Positions 2,420-19,915 of a stretch of 21,840 nt of DNA are shown piece by piece (the stretch's first letter is position 1; every line of letters begins with the position of its first letter). This DNA is from Saccoglossus kowalevskii (Eukaryota > Hemichordata > Enteropneusta > Harrimaniidae). A program made the position numbers and the translations under genes. Below the pieces are notes generated by a model. That model was not told where the DNA came from and did no database searches. It worked only from the letters and a program-made list of their open reading frames with translations. The stretch lies in assembly GCF_000003605.2 (NCBI RefSeq), contig NW_003132861.1, positions 30,002 through 51,841 of the forward strand, written 5' to 3'.

Positions 2420-3628
2420 GTAGGTAATTCTATCCTGCTATCACTGACTTTAATTGTGAAGATTTTTTTTTTCTTTCGCTGAAATAATTATTTTGCCTTC
2501 AACTATAGGGAAATCTTGCAATTAATCCTAAAATTATAAAATCATATACAGGAATTTATTAGTTTACCTTCATGAGGTTATGTAGATGTTATTTTCATTC
2601 ATTTTGAATTTTATTCTTCAAAAAATCTAAATATTTGGAATTCGTTTCTTTATCTTTTAAGCTGCAACATTTTATCAAAATGATTATATTTTCATTTATT
2701 TTATGCCGCCGCTATAATGCTGTAAATATTGTTAGTAGTTGTGAGTCAGGATAGTTAAAACCTTTCAGTCCTGGCCTCAAATCCACTTGTATTCAGAAAC
2801 AGTTGATAGACATTATACATTCTTGTGTATACCTCCTCTAAATATCAACTGACTTTGAATCGCTAGGCCATGAAAGTCTGCTGTAAGCTACGGAATTCTT
2901 GTTACTGTAGAAATCTTGCTATTTGATAAATTTTAAATGTTGTTGAGGCTAAAATTTCACAAAAGTCGCGTCTGTAGGACACAAGAGAAAATTTCCACTT
3001 TTAGTAAATCGTTTGTGATGTCTCTCACAATACTTAAGCTGTATATATGTATATTTAAGTTCTTTAATTTTAATATTAATTACTACCCCTCACCAAAAAT
3101 GGAGCTGAAACATTTTATGAAAACTCGTTCACATAAACAGATTTCATCTGTGAAGATTTAGTAAAAAATATAATAATAACTGTGTGTAATTTAAGTCAAT
3201 ACATGTCAAGCCACTGCGGTTTAACCTTTGCGTCTCATACATTCATTTCACATCCTACTTAATACAATATTTACATAGGTTAGTAATATCTCTCAAATCA
3301 AATACATACATGTGGTATCACTTTCTTGGCACATTGCCAAGATAGATTACTTTTCTGTGCTAATGGTATATGTTATGTAATAGTATTTAGGACAAGGACA
3401 TTTCCAGGATATTTCGTTGTAGGAATTGCTTTTTATCTTGTGTAATCACATTTGTTACTTGGTTTGTCGTTCGTGTTTAGTTTAATTTGTTTTGTAATAA
3501 CGCGATTTAAAGAATGTATGAGTTCAGACCATTCATTAGTTCCCAAATAACACATAATTATGTTCTGAGATTGCACACATGTTCCAAACTTTTATAGATC
3601 TTGCATACTTTTACAGATGGTCAGATTC
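2420..3628. other. AT-rich stretch, possible intron 5' part
   Basis: There are no recognisable exons, RNAs or transposon ends. A 74-codon plus-strand frame at 2937-3161 has no domain or codon signal and is not called. A pyrimidine-then-AG site, TTTTACAG, at 3609-3616 directly precedes an ATG (3617) and the first minisatellite unit. It is a possible acceptor but unsupported. Confidence 0.35.
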
Positions 3629-5690
3629 ACAGGTGTTCTGTATTCACATACCTACACAGGTGTTCTTCACTCACATACCTACACAGGTGTTCTGTACTCA
3701 CATACCTACACAGGTATTCTGTACTCACATACCTACACAGGTATTCTGTACTCGCATACCTACACAGGTGTTCTGTACTCACATACCTACACAGGTATTC
3801 TGTACTCACATACCTACACAGGTGTTCTGTACTCACATGCCTACACAGGTATTCTGTACTCTCATACCTACACAGGTGTTCTGTACTCACATACCTACAC
3901 AGGTATTCTGTACTCACATACCTACACAGGTATTCTGTACTCACATACCTACACAGGTGTTCTTCACTCGCATGCCTACACAGGTGTTCTTCACTCACAT
4001 ACCTACACAGGTGTTCTGTACTCACATGCCTACACAGGTATTCTGTACTCTCATACCTACACAGATGTTCTGTACTCACATACCTACACAGGTATTCTGT
4101 ACTCACATACCTACACAGGTGTTCTGTACTCTCATACCTACACAGGTGTTTTGTACTCGTATGCCTACACAGGTATTCTGTACTCACATACCTACACAGG
4201 TGTTCTGTACTCTCATACCTACACAGGTGTTTTGTACTCACATACCTACACAGGTGTTTTGTACTCACATACCTACACAGGTGTTCTGTACTCTCATACC
4301 TACACAGGTGTTCTTCACTCACATACCTACACAGGTGTTCTGTACTCTCATACCTACGCAGGTATTCTGTACTCACATACCTACACAGGTATTCTGTACT
4401 CACATACCTACACAGGTATTCTGTACTCACATACCTACACAGGTGTTCTTCACTCACATACCTACACAGGTGTTTTGTACTCACATACCTACACAGGTGT
4501 TCTGTACTCTCATACCTACACAGGTGTTCTGTACTCGCATGCCTACACAGGTGTTCTTCACTCACATACCTACACAGGTGTTCTGTACTCACATACCTAC
4601 ACAGGTATTCTGTACTCACATACCTACACAGGTATTCTGTACTCGCATACCTACACAGGTGTTCTTCACTCGCATGCCTACACAGGTGTTCTGTACTCGC
4701 ATGCCTACACAGGTGTTCTGTACTCACATACCTACACAGGTATTCTGTACTCACATACCTACACAGGTGTTCTGTACTCACATGCCTACACAGGTATTCT
4801 GTACTCTCATACCTACACAGATGTTCTGTACTCACATACCTACACAGGTATTCTGTACTCACATACCTACACAGGTGTTCTGTACTCTCATACCTACACA
4901 GGTGTTTTGTACTCGTATGCCTACACAGGTGTTTTGTACTCACATACCTACACAGGTGTTCTGTACTCTCATACCTACACAGGTGTTCTGTACTCGCATA
5001 CCTACACAGGTGTTCTGTACTCTCATACCTACGCAGGTGTTCTGTACTCTCATACCTACACAGGTGTTCTGTACTCGTATGCCTACACAGGTGTTCTGTA
5101 CTCTCATACCTACACAGGTGTTTTGTACTCGCATACCTACACAGGTGTTTTGTACTCACATACCTACACAGGTGTTCTGTACTCGCATGCCTACACAGGT
5201 GTTCTGTACTCACATACCTACACAGGTGTTCTGTACTTTCATACCTACACAGGTGTTCTGTACTCGCATGCCTACACAGGTGTTTTGTACTCACATACCT
5301 ACACAGGTGTTCTGTACTCGCATGCCTACACAGGTGTTTTGTACTCGTATGCCTACACAGGTGTTCTGTACTCACATACCTACACAGGTGTTTTGTACTC
5401 ACATACCTACACAGGTGTTCTCTACTCGCATACCTACACAGGTGTTCTGTATTCACATACCTACACAGGTGTTCTGTATTCACATACCTACACAGGTGTT
5501 CTGTATTCACATACCTACACAGGTGTTCTCTACTCGCATACCTACACATGTGTTCTGTACTCGCATACCTACACATGTGTTCTGTATTCACATACCTACA
5601 CAGGTGTTCTCTACTCGCATACCTACACAGGTGTTCTGTACTCACATACCTACACAGGTGTTCTGTACTCGCATACCTACATGTGTTTGT
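3629..5690 (+). repeat. 27 bp minisatellite, 76 units in perfect register
   Basis: The unit is the 18-base core CCTACACAGGTGTTCTGT plus a 9-base spacer (ACTCACATA and variants). The motif ACAGG occurs at 3629 and again in the last clean unit at 5654. The distance, 2025, is exactly 75 x 27, so no net indel has accumulated. Variation is confined to a few positions: A/T/G in the spacer, A/G (ATACC or ATGCC), G/A (GTGTTC or GTATTC), C/T (TTCTG or TTTTG), and a TTCTTCACT variant. GC is 12/27 by count, well above the AT-rich flanks. Because 27 is a multiple of three and the unit lacks stops, all three plus frames and one minus frame stay open for about 2 kb (up to 808 codons, 3617-6043). I treat these as repeat by-products, not genes. 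Confidence 0.97.
4021..4168 (+). repeat. Array segment duplicated 756 bp (28 units) downstream
   Basis: The same ordered series of unit variants, including the rare ACAGATGTTC unit at 4061 and the TTTTGTACTCGTATGCC unit, appears again at about 4777-4924 (ACAGATG at 4817). The offset of 756 is exactly 28 units. This is a block duplication inside the array, which indicates growth by unequal exchange or replication of multi-unit blocks. Confidence 0.85.
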
Positions 5691-5926
5691 TTCTTTGTTC
5701 TCACATGTTCTGTATACAGGTGCTTTGTACTTCCATATCTACACGTGTGTTCTGTACTCACCTGTCTATATGTATAAAGTTTTGGATCACATACCTAAAC
5801 AAACTTTCTGTACTCGCATACCAAAACATAGATGTACATAGGTGGTACATCTACACAGACATATTTACGAGATCACACACCTACACAGGCGTTCTGTATG
5901 TGCTCACACACATACACAGGTGTTTT
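5691..5926 (+). repeat. Degenerate transition zone between the 27 bp and 31 bp arrays
   Basis: The unit core decays (TACATGTGTTTGTTTC, then ATCTACACGTGTG, then CTGTCTATATG) and spacing becomes irregular. Recognisable 31 bp units resume near 5876 with CACACACCTACACAGG. The zone marks where the period changes from 27 to 31 bp by a 4-base lengthening of the spacer, with the core kept. Confidence 0.8.
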
Positions 5927-6174
5927 GTACAAGCTAACACGCCTACACAGGTGTTTGGTATTCATTCACACGCCTACACAGGTGTTCTGTATGCGTTCAC
6001 ACACCTACACAGGTGTTCTGTATGCGTTCACACACCTACATAGGTGTTTTGTACAAGCTAACACGCCTACACAGGTGTTTGGTATTCATTCACACGCCTA
6101 CACAGGTGTTCTGTATGCGTTCACACACCTACACAGGTGTTCTGTATGCGTTCACACACCTACATAGGTGTTTA
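5927..6174 (+). repeat. Two tandem copies of a 124 bp higher-order repeat (4 x 31 bp)
   Basis: The string GTACAAGCTAACACGCC starts at 5927 and again at 6051, 124 bp apart. The four-unit order (GTACAAGCTAACAC, GGTATTCATTCACAC, GTATGCGTTCACAC, GTATGCGTTCACAC) is repeated essentially without change, including the shared CTACATAGG variant at the end of each copy. That variant creates the in-frame TAG that closes the longest open frame of the 27 bp array. The near identity of the two copies points to recent duplication. Confidence 0.9.
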
Positions 6175-8815
6175 GTACAAGATTACACACTTACACAGGT
6201 GTTCTGTACCAGCTCTCACACCTATACAGATGTTATGTGCAGACTGTGGAAGCTCATTCACCTACACAGGTGTTCTGTGGAAGCTCATTCACCTATACAG
6301 GTGTTTTGTGGAAGCTCATAAACCTACACAGGTGTTCTGTGGAAGCTCATAAACCTACACAGTTGTTCTGTGGAAGCTCATTTACCTACACAGGTGTTCT
6401 GTGGAAGCTCATTCACCTATACAGGTGTTTTGTGGAAGCTCATAAACCTACACAGGTGTTCTGTGGAAGCTCATAAACCTACACAGGTGTTCTGTGGAAG
6501 CTCATAAACCTACACATGTGTTCTGTGGAAGCTCATTCACCTACACAGGTGTTCTGTAGAAGCTCATTCACCTACACAGGTGTTCTGTTGAAGCTCATAA
6601 ACCTGAACAGGTGTTCTGTTGAAGCTCATACACCTACACAGGTGTTCTGTGGAAGCTCATTCACCTACACAGGTGTCCTGTAGAAGCTCATTCACCTACA
6701 CAGGTGTTCTGTGGAAGCTCATACACCTACACAGGTGTTCTGTGGAAGCTCATTCACCTACACAGGTGTTCTGTGGAAGCTCATAAACCTGCACAGGTGT
6801 TCTGTTGAAGCTCATACACCTACACAGGTGTTCTGTTGAAGCTCATTTACCTACACAGGTGTTCTGTGGAAGCTCATTCCCCTACACAGGTGTTCTGTGG
6901 AAGCTCATTCCCCTACACAGGTGTTCTGTGGAAGCTTATACACCTACACAGGTGTTCTGCGGAAGCTGATACACCTACACAGGTGTTCTGTGGAAGCTCA
7001 TTCTCCTACACAGGTGTTCTGTGGAAGCTCATAAACCTACACAGGTGTTCTGTGGAAGCTGATACACCTACACAGGTGTTCTGTGGAAGCTCATTTCCCT
7101 ACACAGGTGTTCTGTGGAAGCTCATTCCCCTACACAGGTGTTCTGTGGAAGCTCATAAACCTACACAGGTGTTCTGTGGAAGCTGATACACCTACACAGG
7201 TGTTCTGCGGAAGCTCATAAACCTACACAGGTGTTCTGTGGAAGCTCATAAACCTACACAGGTGTTCTGTGGAAGCTGATACACCTACACAGGTGTTCTG
7301 TGGAAGCTCATTCCCCTACACAGGTGTTCTGTGGAAGCTCATTCCCCTACACAGGTGTTCTGTGGAAGCTCATAAACCTACACAGGTGTTCTGTGGAAGC
7401 TGATACACCTACACAGGTGTTCTGCGGAAGCTCATAAACCTACACAGGTGTTCTGTGGAAGCTCATAAACCTACACAGGTGTTCTGTGGAAGCTAATTCC
7501 CCTACACAGGTGTTCTGTGGAAGCTCATTCCTCTACACAGGTGTTCTGTGGAAGCTCATAAACCTACACAGGTGTTCTGTGGAAGCTGATTCCCCTACAC
7601 AGGTGTTCTGCGGAAGCTCATTCACCTACACAGGTGTTCTGTGGAAGCTCATAAACCTACACAGGTGTTCTGTGGAAGCTGATACACCTACACAGGTGTT
7701 CTGCGGAAGCTCATTTACCTACACAGGTGTTCTGCGGAAGCTCATTTACCTACACAGGTGTTCTGTGGAAGCTCATTCCCCTACACAGGTGTTCTGTGGA
7801 AGCTCATTCCCCTACACAGGTGTTCTGTGGAAGCTTATACACCTACACAGGTATTCTGCGGAAGCTCATTTACCTACACAGGTGTTCTGTGGAAGCTCAT
7901 TCCCCTACACAGGTGTTCTGTGGAAGCTCATTCACCTACACAGGTATTCTGCGGAAGCTCATAAACCTACACAGGTGTTCTGTGGAAGCTCATTCACCTA
8001 CACAGGTGTTCTGTGGAAGCTCATAAACCTACACAGGTGTTCTGTGGAAGCTTATTCACCTACACAGGTGTTCTGCGGAAGCTCATTCACCTACACAGGT
8101 ATTCTGCGGAAGCTCATAAACCTACACAGGTGTTCTGTGGAAGCTCATTCACCTACACAGGTGTTCTGTGGAAGCTCATAAACCTACACAGGTGTTCTGT
8201 GGAAGCTCATAAACCTACACAGGTGTTCTGTGGAAGCTCATTCACCTACACAGGTGTTCTGCGGAAGCTCATAAACCTGCACAGGTGTTCTGTTGAAGCT
8301 CATACACCTACACAGGTGTTCTGTAGAAGCTCATTCACCTACACAGGTGTTCTGTGGAAGCTCATAAACCTGCACAGGTGTTCTGTTGAAGCTCATTCAC
8401 CTACACAGGTGTTCTGTGGAAGCTCATTCACCTACACAGGTGTTCTGTGGAAGCTCATTCACCTACACAGGTGTTCTGTGGAAGCTCATAAACCTGCACA
8501 GGTGTTCTGTGGAAGCTCATAAACCTGCACTGGTGTTCTGTTGAAGCTCATACACCTACACAGGTGTTCTGTGGAAGCTCATTCACCTACACAGGTGTTC
8601 TGTGGAAGCTCATTCCCCTACACAGGTGTTCTGTGGAAGCTTATACACCTACACAGGTGTTCTGTGGAAGCTCATACACCTACACAGGTGTTCTGCGGAA
8701 GCTGATAGACCTACACAGGTGTTCTGTGGAAGCTCATTTACCTACACAGGTGTTCTGTGGAAGCTCATTCACCTACACACGTGTTCTGTGGAAGCTGATA
8801 CACCTACACAGGTGT
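6175..8815 (+). repeat. 31 bp minisatellite, 83 units in perfect register
   Basis: The unit is the same core CCTACACAGGTGTTCTGT with a longer spacer (GGAAGCTCATTCA and variants AAA, ACA, TTT, CCC). ACAGG at 6266 and at 8808 are 2542 bp apart, exactly 82 x 31, so this block also has no net indel. A single 40-base unit (6226-6266) separates it from the preceding variants. GC is 15/31 in the commonest unit. Because 31 is not a multiple of three, the frame rotates each unit. Variants with CATAAACC and GCTGATACACC bring in stops, so the 70-230 codon frames here are not genes. The array ends abruptly at GTGTTATATCATCAC near 8815. Confidence 0.97.
7061..7494 (+). repeat. 217 bp higher-order repeat (7 x 31 bp), two copies
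   Basis: The GCTGATACACC variant occurs at 7061, 7185, 7278 and 7402, giving intervals of 124, 93 and 124 bp. Copy 1 (7061-7277) and copy 2 (7278-7494) match base for base by eye except about one position (TTTCCC against TTCCCC). This is a second level of block duplication, with a period different from the 124 bp repeat at 5927. Confidence 0.88.
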
Positions 8816-9350
8816 TATATCATCACAAATTCACTGGGGAGTAATTGTTACATTGTGTTCACAAAAATATTTGCTGTCAGCCAAGTGCCTATATTATACG
8901 TAAAAGACAAGATTTAGTTTAGTTAGGATGGTGTAGTACTAGATCAATCAATTACGAAATAACATGCAACTAGATATATCAATCGTTGGACATTAATGCA
9001 ATAATGGGGTAATTTCAAATCAGTATTTCAATTCATGGCATCAAACATCTGAGAGATTAAGATTATACTAATTTGTGCAAAATGAATTTTATTTTTATTG
9101 ATTGAGCACATTGTAGCACTCAGGAAATGATTGTTGGACACACCACCTGCTAACTCAAAAAGCTGATTCAGAGAAGATCTGCTGAAATTCAAGTAGTTGT
9201 TGTGATTTTAAGCAGCATTGATCAGGAATTGTAATATGATATATCGTCTTGCATGATTGTGTAAATTTTAGGCTATGTAGGTACCTTGAATGGACCTCTG
9301 TCAAATTTGTTAGTCCCTGTTTGGATACAGTCCGAAAACGTGGATTTATG
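8816..9350. other. Unique AT-rich sequence after the minisatellite
   Basis: Repeat similarity stops sharply at about 8815. No coding frame, RNA or mobile-element end is visible between here and 9350. Confidence 0.4.
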
Positions 9351-9405: not shown

Positions 9406-9570
9406 ATGCATCCTGACCTGAATCTTAGACATGCCTGGACCAATTACATTCAAACTTCTTAAATACATCATAAATAATATTATACATGTGCAGGTCAATT
9501 AGTTCATGGCTGAATGGCGGTCATTTTGTTGTACTGAATGTGGTTTTAGTGCCATATCATTGTCAGGCTG

Positions 9571-9935
9571 TTATTGAGTTGCCATAGAGGGCATGCTTTT
9601 ATTGTGTTGCCATATACATTGTATAGAGGGCATGCTTTTATTGAGATGCCATAGAGGGCATACTTTATTGAGTTGCCATAGAGGGCATACTTTATTGAGT
9701 TGGCCAAGCAGTCATTCTTTTTTGAGTTGGCATAGCGGTCATGCCTTTATTGATTCGTCATATAGGGCATGTTTTTATTGACTTGCCATAGAGGGCATAC
9801 TTTATTGAGTTGCCATGGAATGCATGCTTTTATTGACTTGCCTAGAGGGCATACTTTTATTGACTTGCCATAGAGGGCATGCTTTTATTGACTTGCCATA
9901 GAGGGCATACTTTTATTGACTTGCCATAGAGGATT
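9571..9935 (+). repeat. 28 bp minisatellite, about 13 degenerate units
   Basis: The unit is TTGCCATAGAGGGCATGC followed by TTTTATTGAC, 28 bp measured between 9862 and 9890. Some units are shorter because of ACTTTATTGAG. A 5' unit carries an insertion, ATATACATTGTATAGAGGGC, near 9611, and a similar ACACTGTATAGAGGG occurs just after the array near 9950. Units in the middle (9695-9775) are the most diverged, while the last four (9830-9930) are the most homogeneous. The core GGGCATGC contains the palindrome GCATGC. Confidence 0.9.
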
Positions 9936-11045: not shown

Positions 11046-11095
11046 GAAAAAAGCATGCCCTCTATGGCTACTCAACAAAGTATGCCCTTTATGGC
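11046..11095 (-). repeat. Two inverted units of the 28 bp minisatellite
   Basis: GCATGCCCTCTATGGC and TATGCCCTTTATGGCAAC are reverse complements of the 9571-9935 unit, spaced as tandem units. A further single piece, GTGCATGCCCTCTACAC, lies near 11980. The pieces in opposite orientation bracket about 1.1 kb, which suggests an inversion or an element flanked by repeat copies. Confidence 0.8.
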
Positions 11096-11099
11096 AACT

Positions 11100-11757
11100 G
11101 AATACAAACAGCAAAGACCTCAACAGGAGCTTGCATCCTGTGACAGTCGATAGAAGATAATCAAAAACTATTATATAAATTATTATCAATTTTATTTGAA
11201 ATATTTGCAAATTTTTTGTTATGTTTTTTTATATGATTATTCATATCAATAATAATATATCATTCATGTCACCAAACAAAAATTTAAGATAGGAAAAATT
11301 ATTTGCAATATAGAAACCAGTTGCAAAATGCTAATTTTGACCCTTTTTCTATGATAGTTTGAACTGTTGTTTTTTCAAAAAATTGTCCAGTAATCCTAAT
11401 TTTTTTTTTTTACAATTTCAGTATCCCAATTATATTATTGTTTAAAGTATGAAAATAATGAAATACTGTAAAACCATTTATTATCAACGACATTTAATCA
11501 GTAAACTTGATAACCATGAAATCATCCAAATTCTTGCAAGAAATGTATACACAGCTTTTCAGGTTAGATATAATTTGTTCGTCTGAGTTCTCCAATAGAT
11601 GAGTTATAATAATTTATTTTATTGAGGCGATTAAAGTCACGCTTGTAACTTTCTTTTTATATGCATTGTAACCTGTTCCCCCAGGTTAGTGGGGTATATT
11701 TCTTTAGAGAAATGAAAATAAAAAATAATTTAATTTCATTATTTTGATGTTTTGAGC
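11100..11757. other. AT-rich stretch with a possible element end
   Basis: TACTGTAAAACC at 11464 resembles the CTGTAAAA ends of the MITEs elsewhere in the window, but no partner end of the same family was found nearby. No gene was seen. Confidence 0.35.
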
Positions 11758-11890: not shown

Positions 11891-12503
11891 TATTCTTCAA
11901 ATCAATCTAAATCAATATGTAATACCACTACATTAACTTGTACAATAGAGGTATATGCAAAGGTTTGATGCAATATTATTGTGCATGCCCTCTACACTAT
12001 CTAAAAATACCATAAACATAAAAATTTCCAATTTAAATTACGCTTTTTTTAAAATCAATATTAGTGTCATAAACGACTCTTCAAAAAAATCTTGCTTTGA
12101 ATATTAATAAACCACTGGAGATACCTAGTCCAATGAATATTAATTTGAGCAGAGAGCTTATAATCTAAGCTAGATTTGTAAACAATGAAGCATCACTGAG
12201 TTATAGGATGAATGTTCGTCTTCGTAGGTCAGTACATTGTCAATAAGTGTGTCTAAGGGATAAGACCATCAAATACTCTGAAAATGAAGATAACAAACAT
12301 CTACATTTTTGGATTCGTTCACAAAATAATTGTAATTTCCCATCGCCAGTAAATCAAATTATGTCTCATTGGAGGAAATATCAGTCAAACAATCAATGCA
12401 CTGTAGATACTTGAATAAATCATTCCAATCAATTTCATTTTTTTTTTTTTTGCAAATTAAGTTTTTCCCGATCAATCTCTGTAAAATATAATTTTATTAT
12501 TAC
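11891..12503. other. AT-rich stretch, no gene seen
   Basis: It contains a poly-T run near 12440-12452. No open frame, RNA or transposon end could be supported. Confidence 0.35.
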
Positions 12504-12876: not shown

Positions 12877-13089
12877 TACTGTAGAATACTTTATTTTCGC
12901 TTGGAATTTATTTTCGCTATTTTCGCTGAAGGGATGATTCAGTGAAAATAAAATCCAGCGAATATACTTTTTTTTCCTATACTTCACATTAAACTCATCA
13001 AAAATCAGTGAAAATAAATTCCAAGCAAAACGCCCAAAAAGCCTTTTCAGCGAAAATTAATTCCAGCGAAAATAAAGTATTCCACAGTA
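12877..13089. mobile_element. MITE-like element, family 1 copy 2, TA-flanked
   Basis: The ends are TA-CTGTAGAATACTTTATTTTC and GAAAATAAAGTATTCCACAG-TA. The inverted termini match over about 30 bases with few differences, and TA borders both sides. The interior carries repeated CAGCGAA/TTCGCTG motifs and matches copy 1 at 1371-1565. It is 213 bp with no coding capacity. The better arm identity suggests it is the younger copy. A 63-codon frame at 12754-12945 runs into the element and is a by-product. Confidence 0.88.
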
Positions 13090-13741: not shown

Positions 13742-14290
13742 GTTACATGTTTTACAATTGAAAAAAAAGATATGAATGTAATATAACAGAAAAAAAAGTC
13801 AAAGGCATAAATAAATTCAAAAATAAAGTACAAGATACATTTATTCTGTTTATTTGTGTGAGTAAAAGTGAGAAAGCCCTGATAACCAAAATGAATATTC
13901 ATGAGGTAATATATAGTATAAACACAAACTTTATTTTTCAATTACTTTTTTTGTTTCAAATTACAGTGGTTAGGAAGCTAATTTAAACTAGAAAGTATAA
14001 AAATATTGCCCAAGAATAAAAAAAAAAGTATCTCTATAAAATATGAAAAATTAAATGGCAAATGTGAAACGAATTTTAACTTGGAAAATAAATAAAGACT
14101 ACATTCCTTCTATGAATTATAATGTTCTTTAGAGGTAGATACAAAACGATTCTCATAGCATCATATTTACGAGTGATCTTAGAATTTTGAAGAAAAAAGG
14201 CAGTGCAAATTCTATTTTCTTCTGTAGACAAATTGAGCTACACTTCATCACTGTCCCTCCCCTTCTTGTTAACTTGCTGTACGATAAACT
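13742..14290. other. AT-rich stretch, no gene seen
   Basis: Several poly-A runs (13758, 13792, 14020). The 72-codon minus-strand frame at 13723-13941 has AT-driven composition and no domain. Nothing else was recognised. Confidence 0.35.
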
Positions 14291-14382
14291 CCCAGCATGC
14301 AGTGTGGTAAACGCCCAGCATGCAGTGTGGTAAACTCCCGGCATGCAGTGTGGTAAACTCCCAGCATGCAGTGTGGTAAACA
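14291..14382 (+). repeat. Four tandem 23 bp repeats
   Basis: CAGCATGCAGTGTGGTAAAC, plus a three-base spacer, starts at 14293, 14316, 14339 and 14362, exactly 23 bp apart. The copies differ only at one or two bases (CGGCATGC in the third, CGCC against CTCC in the spacer). The 93-codon minus-strand frame at 14153-14434 crosses it and is not called as a gene. Confidence 0.93.
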
Positions 14383-19359: not shown

Positions 19360-19915
19360 TGAATACTCCAGTTTTCTAGATGCTCATAATTATGTTCAGA
19401 TTCACAAAGTTTTAGTTTGCTAATCAACAGGGTTTGTGACAAGTGTAACAAAGGTCTAATTGAAAATGAAATGTACTTTCTGATGGAATGCAACAAATAT
19501 AATGAGTTGCGTACCGATCTTTTCAATAAAGCTAAGGATATGATCCCAGCATTTAAAAATAAACCTACAGAGAAAAAAATCATGGAATTATAAAAACATT
19601 ATTATACCAGTAGCACAGTTCATAAGTAAAAGCTTTGAAGTCAGGAAACAGGATCTTAGTTGACATTTTAATGCCTGCTGTCAGTAATATTAACTTTTAC
19701 ACTTTTTTTCTTTGTTATGACAAATTTTACCTATTTTTCATTATTTTAGTAATCTTACATTATTTAGTATTTTAGTGATTTTGTATTATTTAGGGATTGT
19801 ATTTTGTTATCTAGCATATTGTTTTCTATTCTTGTTTTCTTGTACCTTGTGACAATTTCTTTTCCGTCCGGGGATTGTGTCAATTTAAGTAAATAAATAA
19901 AAAATAAATAAAATT
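19360..19915 (+). mobile_element. 5'-truncated LINE: C-terminal zinc-knuckle-like end, 3' UTR and TAAA tail
   Basis: In the plus strand, 19426-19592 encodes NRVCDKCNKG, then a segment ending YFLMECNKYNELR, finishing MEL-stop. This is the classic C-terminal 'R.C..C......E.h.l.eC..Y..lR' motif of LINE reverse transcriptase proteins. A frameshifted continuation, VAQFISKSFEVRKQDL (about 19606-19653), looks like the extreme C-terminus. A 3' UTR follows, with a distinctive CCGTCCGGGGATTGTGTC near 19865, then a (TAAA)n tail to about 19915. The lack of the rest of the ORF fits the usual 5' truncation of LINE copies. The UTR matches the inverted copy at 21467-21840. An 87-codon minus-strand frame across 19320-19583 is a shadow. 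Confidence 0.85.

Follow-up and report, generated by a model that had tools for sequence, protein, structure and literature searches.

How does a tandem repeat change the length of its unit while part of that unit stays the same, and does the constant part persist through function or simply through descent? This question is raised by a stretch of the Saccoglossus kowalevskii genome 21,840 nucleotides in length, here called the window (contig NW_003132861.1, C2453 in our numbering; C2453:30002-51841), in which a minisatellite switches from 27-bp to 31-bp units around one 18-base core, CCTACACAGGTGTTCTGT. An initial annotation of the window had left two options for this core, function or ancestry. 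Our analysis favors ancestry and gives core function little support, because the spacers of intermediate 31-bp units share homology with the 27-bp spacers once a 4-bp insertion or deletion (indel) is allowed for, and because the core occurs elsewhere in the genome only at chance level. The locus is very probably a neutral, single-locus minisatellite with two unit lengths that arose by ordinary repeat turnover.

Anatomy and copy number of the array

All coordinates without a prefix are window positions. The repeats form one head-to-tail tandem array of about 5.2 kb, from about 3624 to 8833, with a GC content of about 44-48%. Allowing up to 2 mismatches, the core is found 168 times in the window, always on the + strand, where shuffled sequences lead to an expectation of 0.01. 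Segmentation of the array at up to 6 mismatches yields 174 core-like units. Of the 173 spacings between them, which leave out the last unit with its default length of 31, 76 measure exactly 27 bp and 93 exactly 31 bp, and the other four are 62, 56, 86, and 40 bp. Outside the core, each unit consists of a spacer, which has 9 bases in the 27-bp units and 13 in the 31-bp units. Three sets of units are distinguished: the 27-bp array (A27), an intermediate 31-bp family (I31), and the 31-bp array (B31). The majority consensus core is identical in all three. Tandem Repeats Finder reports the array as two overlapping rows, 3628-8758 and 5873-8816.

Specifically, the majority spacer of A27, ACTCACATA, is present in 34 of its 75 units, and the B31 spacer is mostly GGAAGCTCAT followed by a three-base end that varies. 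The I31 spacer types are ATGTGCTCACACA, ATGCGTTCACACA, ATTCATTCACACG, ACAAGCTAACACG, ACAAGATTACACA, and ACCAGCTCTCACA. In the decayed zone, where the assignment of units by dynamic programming with our own scores is uncertain, the first five units (to 5820; 34, 28, 33, 23, and 27 bp) were assigned to the 27-bp type and the last two (5821-5879; 29 and 30 bp) to the 31-bp type. Per-site counts cover A27, I31, and B31, and omit both edge units, the decayed zone, and the junction unit of 40 bp (Table 1).

The segmentation confirms the arrangement described by the initial annotation, that is, two long arrays with one core and with differing spacers and unit lengths, and both the decayed zone and the intermediate 31-bp family are present between them. 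Relative to its extent of 3629..8815, the right edge moves one decayed unit further. Its estimate of about 159 units is replaced by about 174, the former figure approximating the sum of intact units in the two main arrays (75 + 82). Head-to-tail units within the range of 9-100 bp, a kilobase-scale locus (174 units of 27 or 31 bp over 5.2 kb), interspersed variant units (22 types among 75 units and 33 among 82), and a sign of block duplication together characterize the array as a minisatellite.

Table 1 Features of the 27/31-bp array, in window positions.
Feature	Position	Strand	Description
Left-edge unit, 27-bp type	3624..3650	+	core changed at 3 positions; spacer ATTCACATA
A27	3651..5675	+	75 indel-free units of 22 distinct types; mean pairwise identity 0.914
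6-unit block in A27	4002..4163	+	exact repeat at 4758-4919, 756 bp (28 units) away; segmental copy
Decayed zone	5676..5879	+	seven degenerate units
I31	5880..6220	+	11 units, 7 distinct; 6 spacer types
40-bp junction unit	6221..6260	+	core with 3 changed positions, 9 additional bases, and the first GGAAGCTCATTCA spacer
B31	6261..8802	+	82 indel-free units of 33 distinct types; mean pairwise identity 0.916
Decayed last unit, right edge	8803..8833	+	22/31 identical

We searched a genome of 572,110,611 bases in 4830 contigs for further copies. A 155-base B31 query gave at least 45 matches, and 45 of the 45 listed lie inside the 5.2-kb array, so that the many loci or very long arrays of satellite DNA are not seen among the matches listed. 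The left flank of the array is single copy, as is the right flank except for a dispersed piece of 38-49 bp at 9263-9311. Single-copy flanking sequence spans 3061-3628 on the left and 8821-9262 on the right. The array is a single-locus minisatellite. The piece at 9263-9311 has 12 further copies among the matches listed, located on other contigs with 88-95% identity.

The initial annotation had suggested that finding the core at other loci with unrelated spacers would argue for function, and the genome search shows no such over-representation. With up to 3 mismatches, the core gives 247 forward and 103 reverse matches in the whole genome, against 84 and 93 for the reversed control; in the window, the corresponding matches are 172 forward, all inside the array, 0 reverse, and 0 control. 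This leaves 178 near-matches beyond the array genome-wide, compared with 177 in the control. At up to 1 mismatch, 149 forward and 0 reverse matches are found, 148 of them in the array and 1 elsewhere. The latter, at C2342:134421, was considered as a second array and rejected, as it is a lone copy without an array. It is treated as a chance match, because a simple base-composition model predicts about 0.4 such matches genome-wide and because its spacer, matching at 8/13, has a p value of 0.066.

The step between 27 and 31 bp

To relate the two unit lengths, 4 bp were deleted from every I31 spacer type, at ten alternative positions in turn, and the products were set against the full set of A27 spacer types. 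After this removal, three of the six I31 types agree with A27-type spacers at 8/9 positions (shuffled p 0.003, 0.005, and 0.010), and the other three match at 7 of 9 (p 0.037, 0.072, and 0.075). The spacers of I31 and A27 are homologous. Mean support over the six types peaks for a deletion after the first (7.33/9) or the second (7.50/9) spacer base, and single types permit offsets of 0-2. Among the 8/9 cases is the first intact 31-bp unit past the decayed zone, at 5880, which reads TTCTGTA-TGTG-CTCACACA, compared with TTCTGTA-CTCACATA. In one of two equal alignments, the TGTG of this unit may be an imperfect duplicate of the TGTA before it, as slippage would produce. A duplication of TTCA producing ATTCATTCACACG was also considered and given up in favor of a 4-bp indel where the spacer begins, which is more general.

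Comparison of the B31 with the I31 spacers gives a weak likeness, with a mean best match of 7.28/13 against 4.79 in column shuffles (p 0.02); among the six commonest B31 types, one falls below 0.05. Judged from the spacers, a chain would run from A27 through I31 to B31, with its first link well supported and its second weakly. The A27 majority spacer differs from B31 spacers at 3 or 4 sites, depending on the spacer used, in addition to the indel. The chance of a shared circular run of at least 18 among 27 positions is 0.26 with 3 differences, 0.086 with 4, and 0.024 with 5.

These comparisons bear on whether A27 and B31 are two unrelated minisatellites that share an 18-base stretch by chance or were joined by rearrangement. 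Such an origin would agree with the lack of significant likeness between A27 and B31 spacers in direct comparison (p 0.13-0.76 over the eight commonest B31 types), but we consider it most improbable, since chance falls far short of explaining an 18-base core shared in one orientation (an expectation of 0.01 in the window when as many as 2 mismatches are allowed), since the intermediate spacers that match the 27-bp type at 8/9 sit between the arrays, and since the search with the B31 query gave no copy elsewhere among the matches listed. Long tandem arrays are often mis-assembled, and the structure could in principle be an artefact of assembly, either a collapsed or a chimeric repeat. This is highly unlikely, as a decayed middle between uniform sides and a block shared over 756 bp would be expected of real turnover, and a chimera would supply no intermediates.

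The change of period also speaks to the coding potential of A27. Four of the six frames of its consensus unit are open, with open reading frames (ORFs) of 672, 732, 746, and 808 amino acids. Against a coding repeat, shuffled units average 3.4 open frames of six, the four open frames show no synonymous bias (p 0.19-0.72), and the period switches to 31, which is no multiple of 3. The sole low p value (0.005) belongs to a frame closed by stops and is taken as chance among six tests. A coding A27 is therefore exceedingly unlikely.

Under a reading of neutral turnover of a single array, we infer the following course. An ancestral array with either 27-bp or 31-bp units would have acquired a 4-bp insertion or deletion, in either direction, after the first or second spacer base, next to the core. 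Unequal exchange, slippage, or short-tract gene conversion would have amplified a 27-bp segment leftward and, after further spacer changes, a 31-bp segment would have been amplified rightward, the older units between both expansions being left to decay. The core would then be the part of the unit where no indel or fixed substitution chanced to fall, held in common by descent and homogenization.

Variation within the core, the spacer, and the arrays

The conservation of the core was assessed position by position in A27, B31, and I31, as the initial annotation had proposed. Two p values were calculated for each contrast, one with the core taken as given (block fixed) and one with every position of an 18-base block allowed (any placement). 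The mean non-majority frequency of core and spacer is 0.038 and 0.084 in A27 (p 0.17 fixed, 0.56 any placement), 0.022 and 0.104 in B31 (p 0.029 fixed, 0.30 any placement), and 0.066 and 0.210 in the 11 units of I31 (p 0.0175 fixed, 0.030 any placement). The I31 p values are optimistic, because these units are not independent (11 units represent 7 types in repeated groups). The core was picked after looking at the sequence, and the contrast accordingly fails in both large arrays once any placement is allowed; in I31 it stays significant. An outcome that the initial annotation had named as refuting a retained core, namely that within each array the core is conserved no better than the spacer, is thus nearly what A27 and B31 show, and it is not what I31 shows. 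Additionally, a tree of the 62 distinct unit types gives 1.94 inferred changes per site in the core and 3.85-3.92 in the spacer (p 0.008-0.010 fixed, 0.13-0.15 any placement).

The 18-base core is no sharply conserved block. Variable sites make up 7/18 of the core and 5/9 of the spacer in A27 (p 0.45), and 10/18 and 5/13 in B31 (p 0.47). B31 has 7 one-off variants in its core and 3 in its spacer, and A27 has 0 and 1. Across the 82 units of B31, 8/18 core sites and 8/13 spacer sites are invariant. The variation of the B31 spacer is confined to five positions (19, 26, and 29-31), positions 20-25, 27, and 28 being the same in 82/82 units, and the spacer stretch GAAGCT is fully invariant. The proposal of a kept core and a free spacer consequently holds as an average, with the spacer excess restricted to some positions, five of 13 in B31. 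Protection of the core is not clear; the contrast is modest, and it is strongest in the intermediate units.

These data allow the possibility to be weighed that the core is a functional element, such as a protein-binding site or a start site of recombination or conversion, which is kept by selection as the spacers drift. The core contains CAGGTG, which we take to be an E-box-like hexamer. The I31 contrast at any placement and the identity of the consensus core across the three unit families are what such an element would leave. We nevertheless regard it as quite improbable in view of the missing genome excess outside the array, the similar fractions of variable sites in core and spacer, the 7 core versus 3 spacer one-off variants of B31, and the wholly invariant GAAGCT of the B31 spacer, which is unlike the core. 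Prediction of the single-strand fold also gives nothing unusual, with z values of 0.51 for two 27-bp units and 0.25 for their reverse strand; for two 31-bp units (forward strand only) z is -1.41, and 17 of 200 shuffles fold as well. Core function is unneeded to explain the array and has little support, the I31 contrast leaving it a small opening.

A related idea, which we find very doubtful, makes the core the active portion of the repeat, such as a start site of breaks or strand invasion, from which every new array would grow. The spacers would then be replaced stepwise (ATGTG, ATGCG, ACAAG, and GGAAG types) with conversion restoring the core, and this process would have left its trace in the low variability of the core among the oldest intermediate units.

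Ordinary turnover of the repeat, the explanation that we prefer, has left its own marks inside the arrays. The 6-unit block of A27 is a segmental copy; in 500 shuffles of unit order, repeated blocks reach 4 units at most. In B31, the longest repeated block has 5 units, and shuffles reach 6. No clear gradient of mean divergence from the consensus was found along A27 or B31. Variant sites are clearly associated in A27 at distances of 1 and 4 bp only, and strongly in B31 at 1-5 bp. This pattern fits fine-scale reassortment together with some higher-order copying, to which recurrent mutation could contribute.

Several results weigh against this explanation. Four of the B31 associations persist at 12-30 bp, linking sites 18-30 and 4-19, and joining sites 26 and 30 to sites 18 and 29 of the following unit. 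In the I31 units, which are taken as the oldest intact ones, variation is lower in the core than in the spacer, and the contrast reaches significance with the block fixed in B31 and, with the core taken as given, in the 62-type tree. Moreover, the best single pair of I31 and B31 spacers is borderline (p 0.05); since the direct link between A27 and B31 is likewise not significant, descent through the intermediates rests partly on their position. The unit lengths in the decayed zone are irregular (23-34 bp), so that they do not fix the site of the period switch.

Neighboring sequence and known minisatellites

Other repeats are found near the array. A second minisatellite at 9550-9932 has a 28-bp unit, ATAGAGGGCATACTTTTATTGACTTGCC, with a higher-order period of 110 bp, and inverted pieces of this unit lie 1-2.4 kb away at 11047-11110 and 11983-12003. 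Four copies of a 23-bp unit, TAAACTCCCAGCATGCAGTGTGG, occupy 14285-14381. Two related stretches, at about 1373-1565 and 12877-13089, carry inverted repeats at their ends, with arms of 33 nt (73% complementary) and 25 nt (96% complementary), respectively, and may represent a small non-autonomous transposon. On the + strand, a frame at 19420-19580 may correspond to the end of a non-LTR retrotransposon protein, a likeness noted by eye. Scans of the window with Rfam (gathering scores) and for tRNA gave no match.

The same contig carries other minisatellites, among them two at C2453:83790-84636 (33 bp; L039:1949-2795) and C2453:134868-135417 (17 bp; L044:3027-3576). These two lie 50 kb apart and match at 14 of 17 consensus positions (shuffled p 0.004). 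By blastn they are about 70% identical in opposite orientation, with E-values inflated by periodicity, and by eye they have CAGTTTA(T/G)A in common, the remaining bases being different. The pair is a possible second case of a kept core with a changed period and, as the two look related, the 27/31-bp array may not be alone in having related units that differ in period. A link of the 27/31-bp array itself to the 17-bp unit was borderline (p about 0.04) and is not claimed.

Pfam was run on 10 of the 60 ORFs listed for the contig. Two contain C2 domains, L045:171-446 and the synaptotagmin-like L044:8124-9095. The latter, a stop-to-stop ORF, lies about 101 kb rightward of the array and is similar to synaptotagmins, with a best E-value of 1.5e-61 (Synaptotagmin-3). 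One repetitive ORF gave three matches, of which one was above the cut-off over 13 residues only, and was discounted; the remaining 7 of the 10, including four ORFs of the window, had no Pfam match.

Minisatellites with a heterogeneous period are a known kind, as parallels in three published accounts indicate. The human minisatellite CEB1 is a single locus, with a 1.8-kb allele of 42 repeats of 36-43 bp, and is G-rich and forms G-quadruplexes (PMC2673046). It resembles our array in being a single-locus array of polymorphic units of differing length and differs from it in base composition, ours being about 44-48% GC; in our array, the two lengths are sorted into uniform blocks. The human Y minisatellite MSY1 has 25-bp units with base-substitution variants and turns over without exchange between alleles, for which gene conversion by synthesis-dependent strand annealing was proposed; the account states that other unit lengths were never observed and invokes a hairpin (PMC2599865). 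Unlike MSY1 so described, our array contains two coexisting unit lengths and no unusual fold is predicted for it, and its variants are interspersed, whereas those of MSY1 stand in blocks. Compound minisatellites with different, intermingled repeat types in one minisatellite are described in Candida glabrata, and such unusual repeats are carried by many EPA adhesin genes (PMC4052548). Our array likewise combines different repeat types, but here they lie side by side and without a coding signal.

If the core were indeed the active part of the repeat, it would provide a concrete sequence as a candidate start site of repeat turnover. Read as a neutral minisatellite, the array is a well-preserved record of a change in minisatellite period, in which both sides of the 4-bp step, the intermediates, and the daughter arrays adjoin one another, and it should be useful as a teaching case and as a possible marker locus rather than as evidence for a conserved function.

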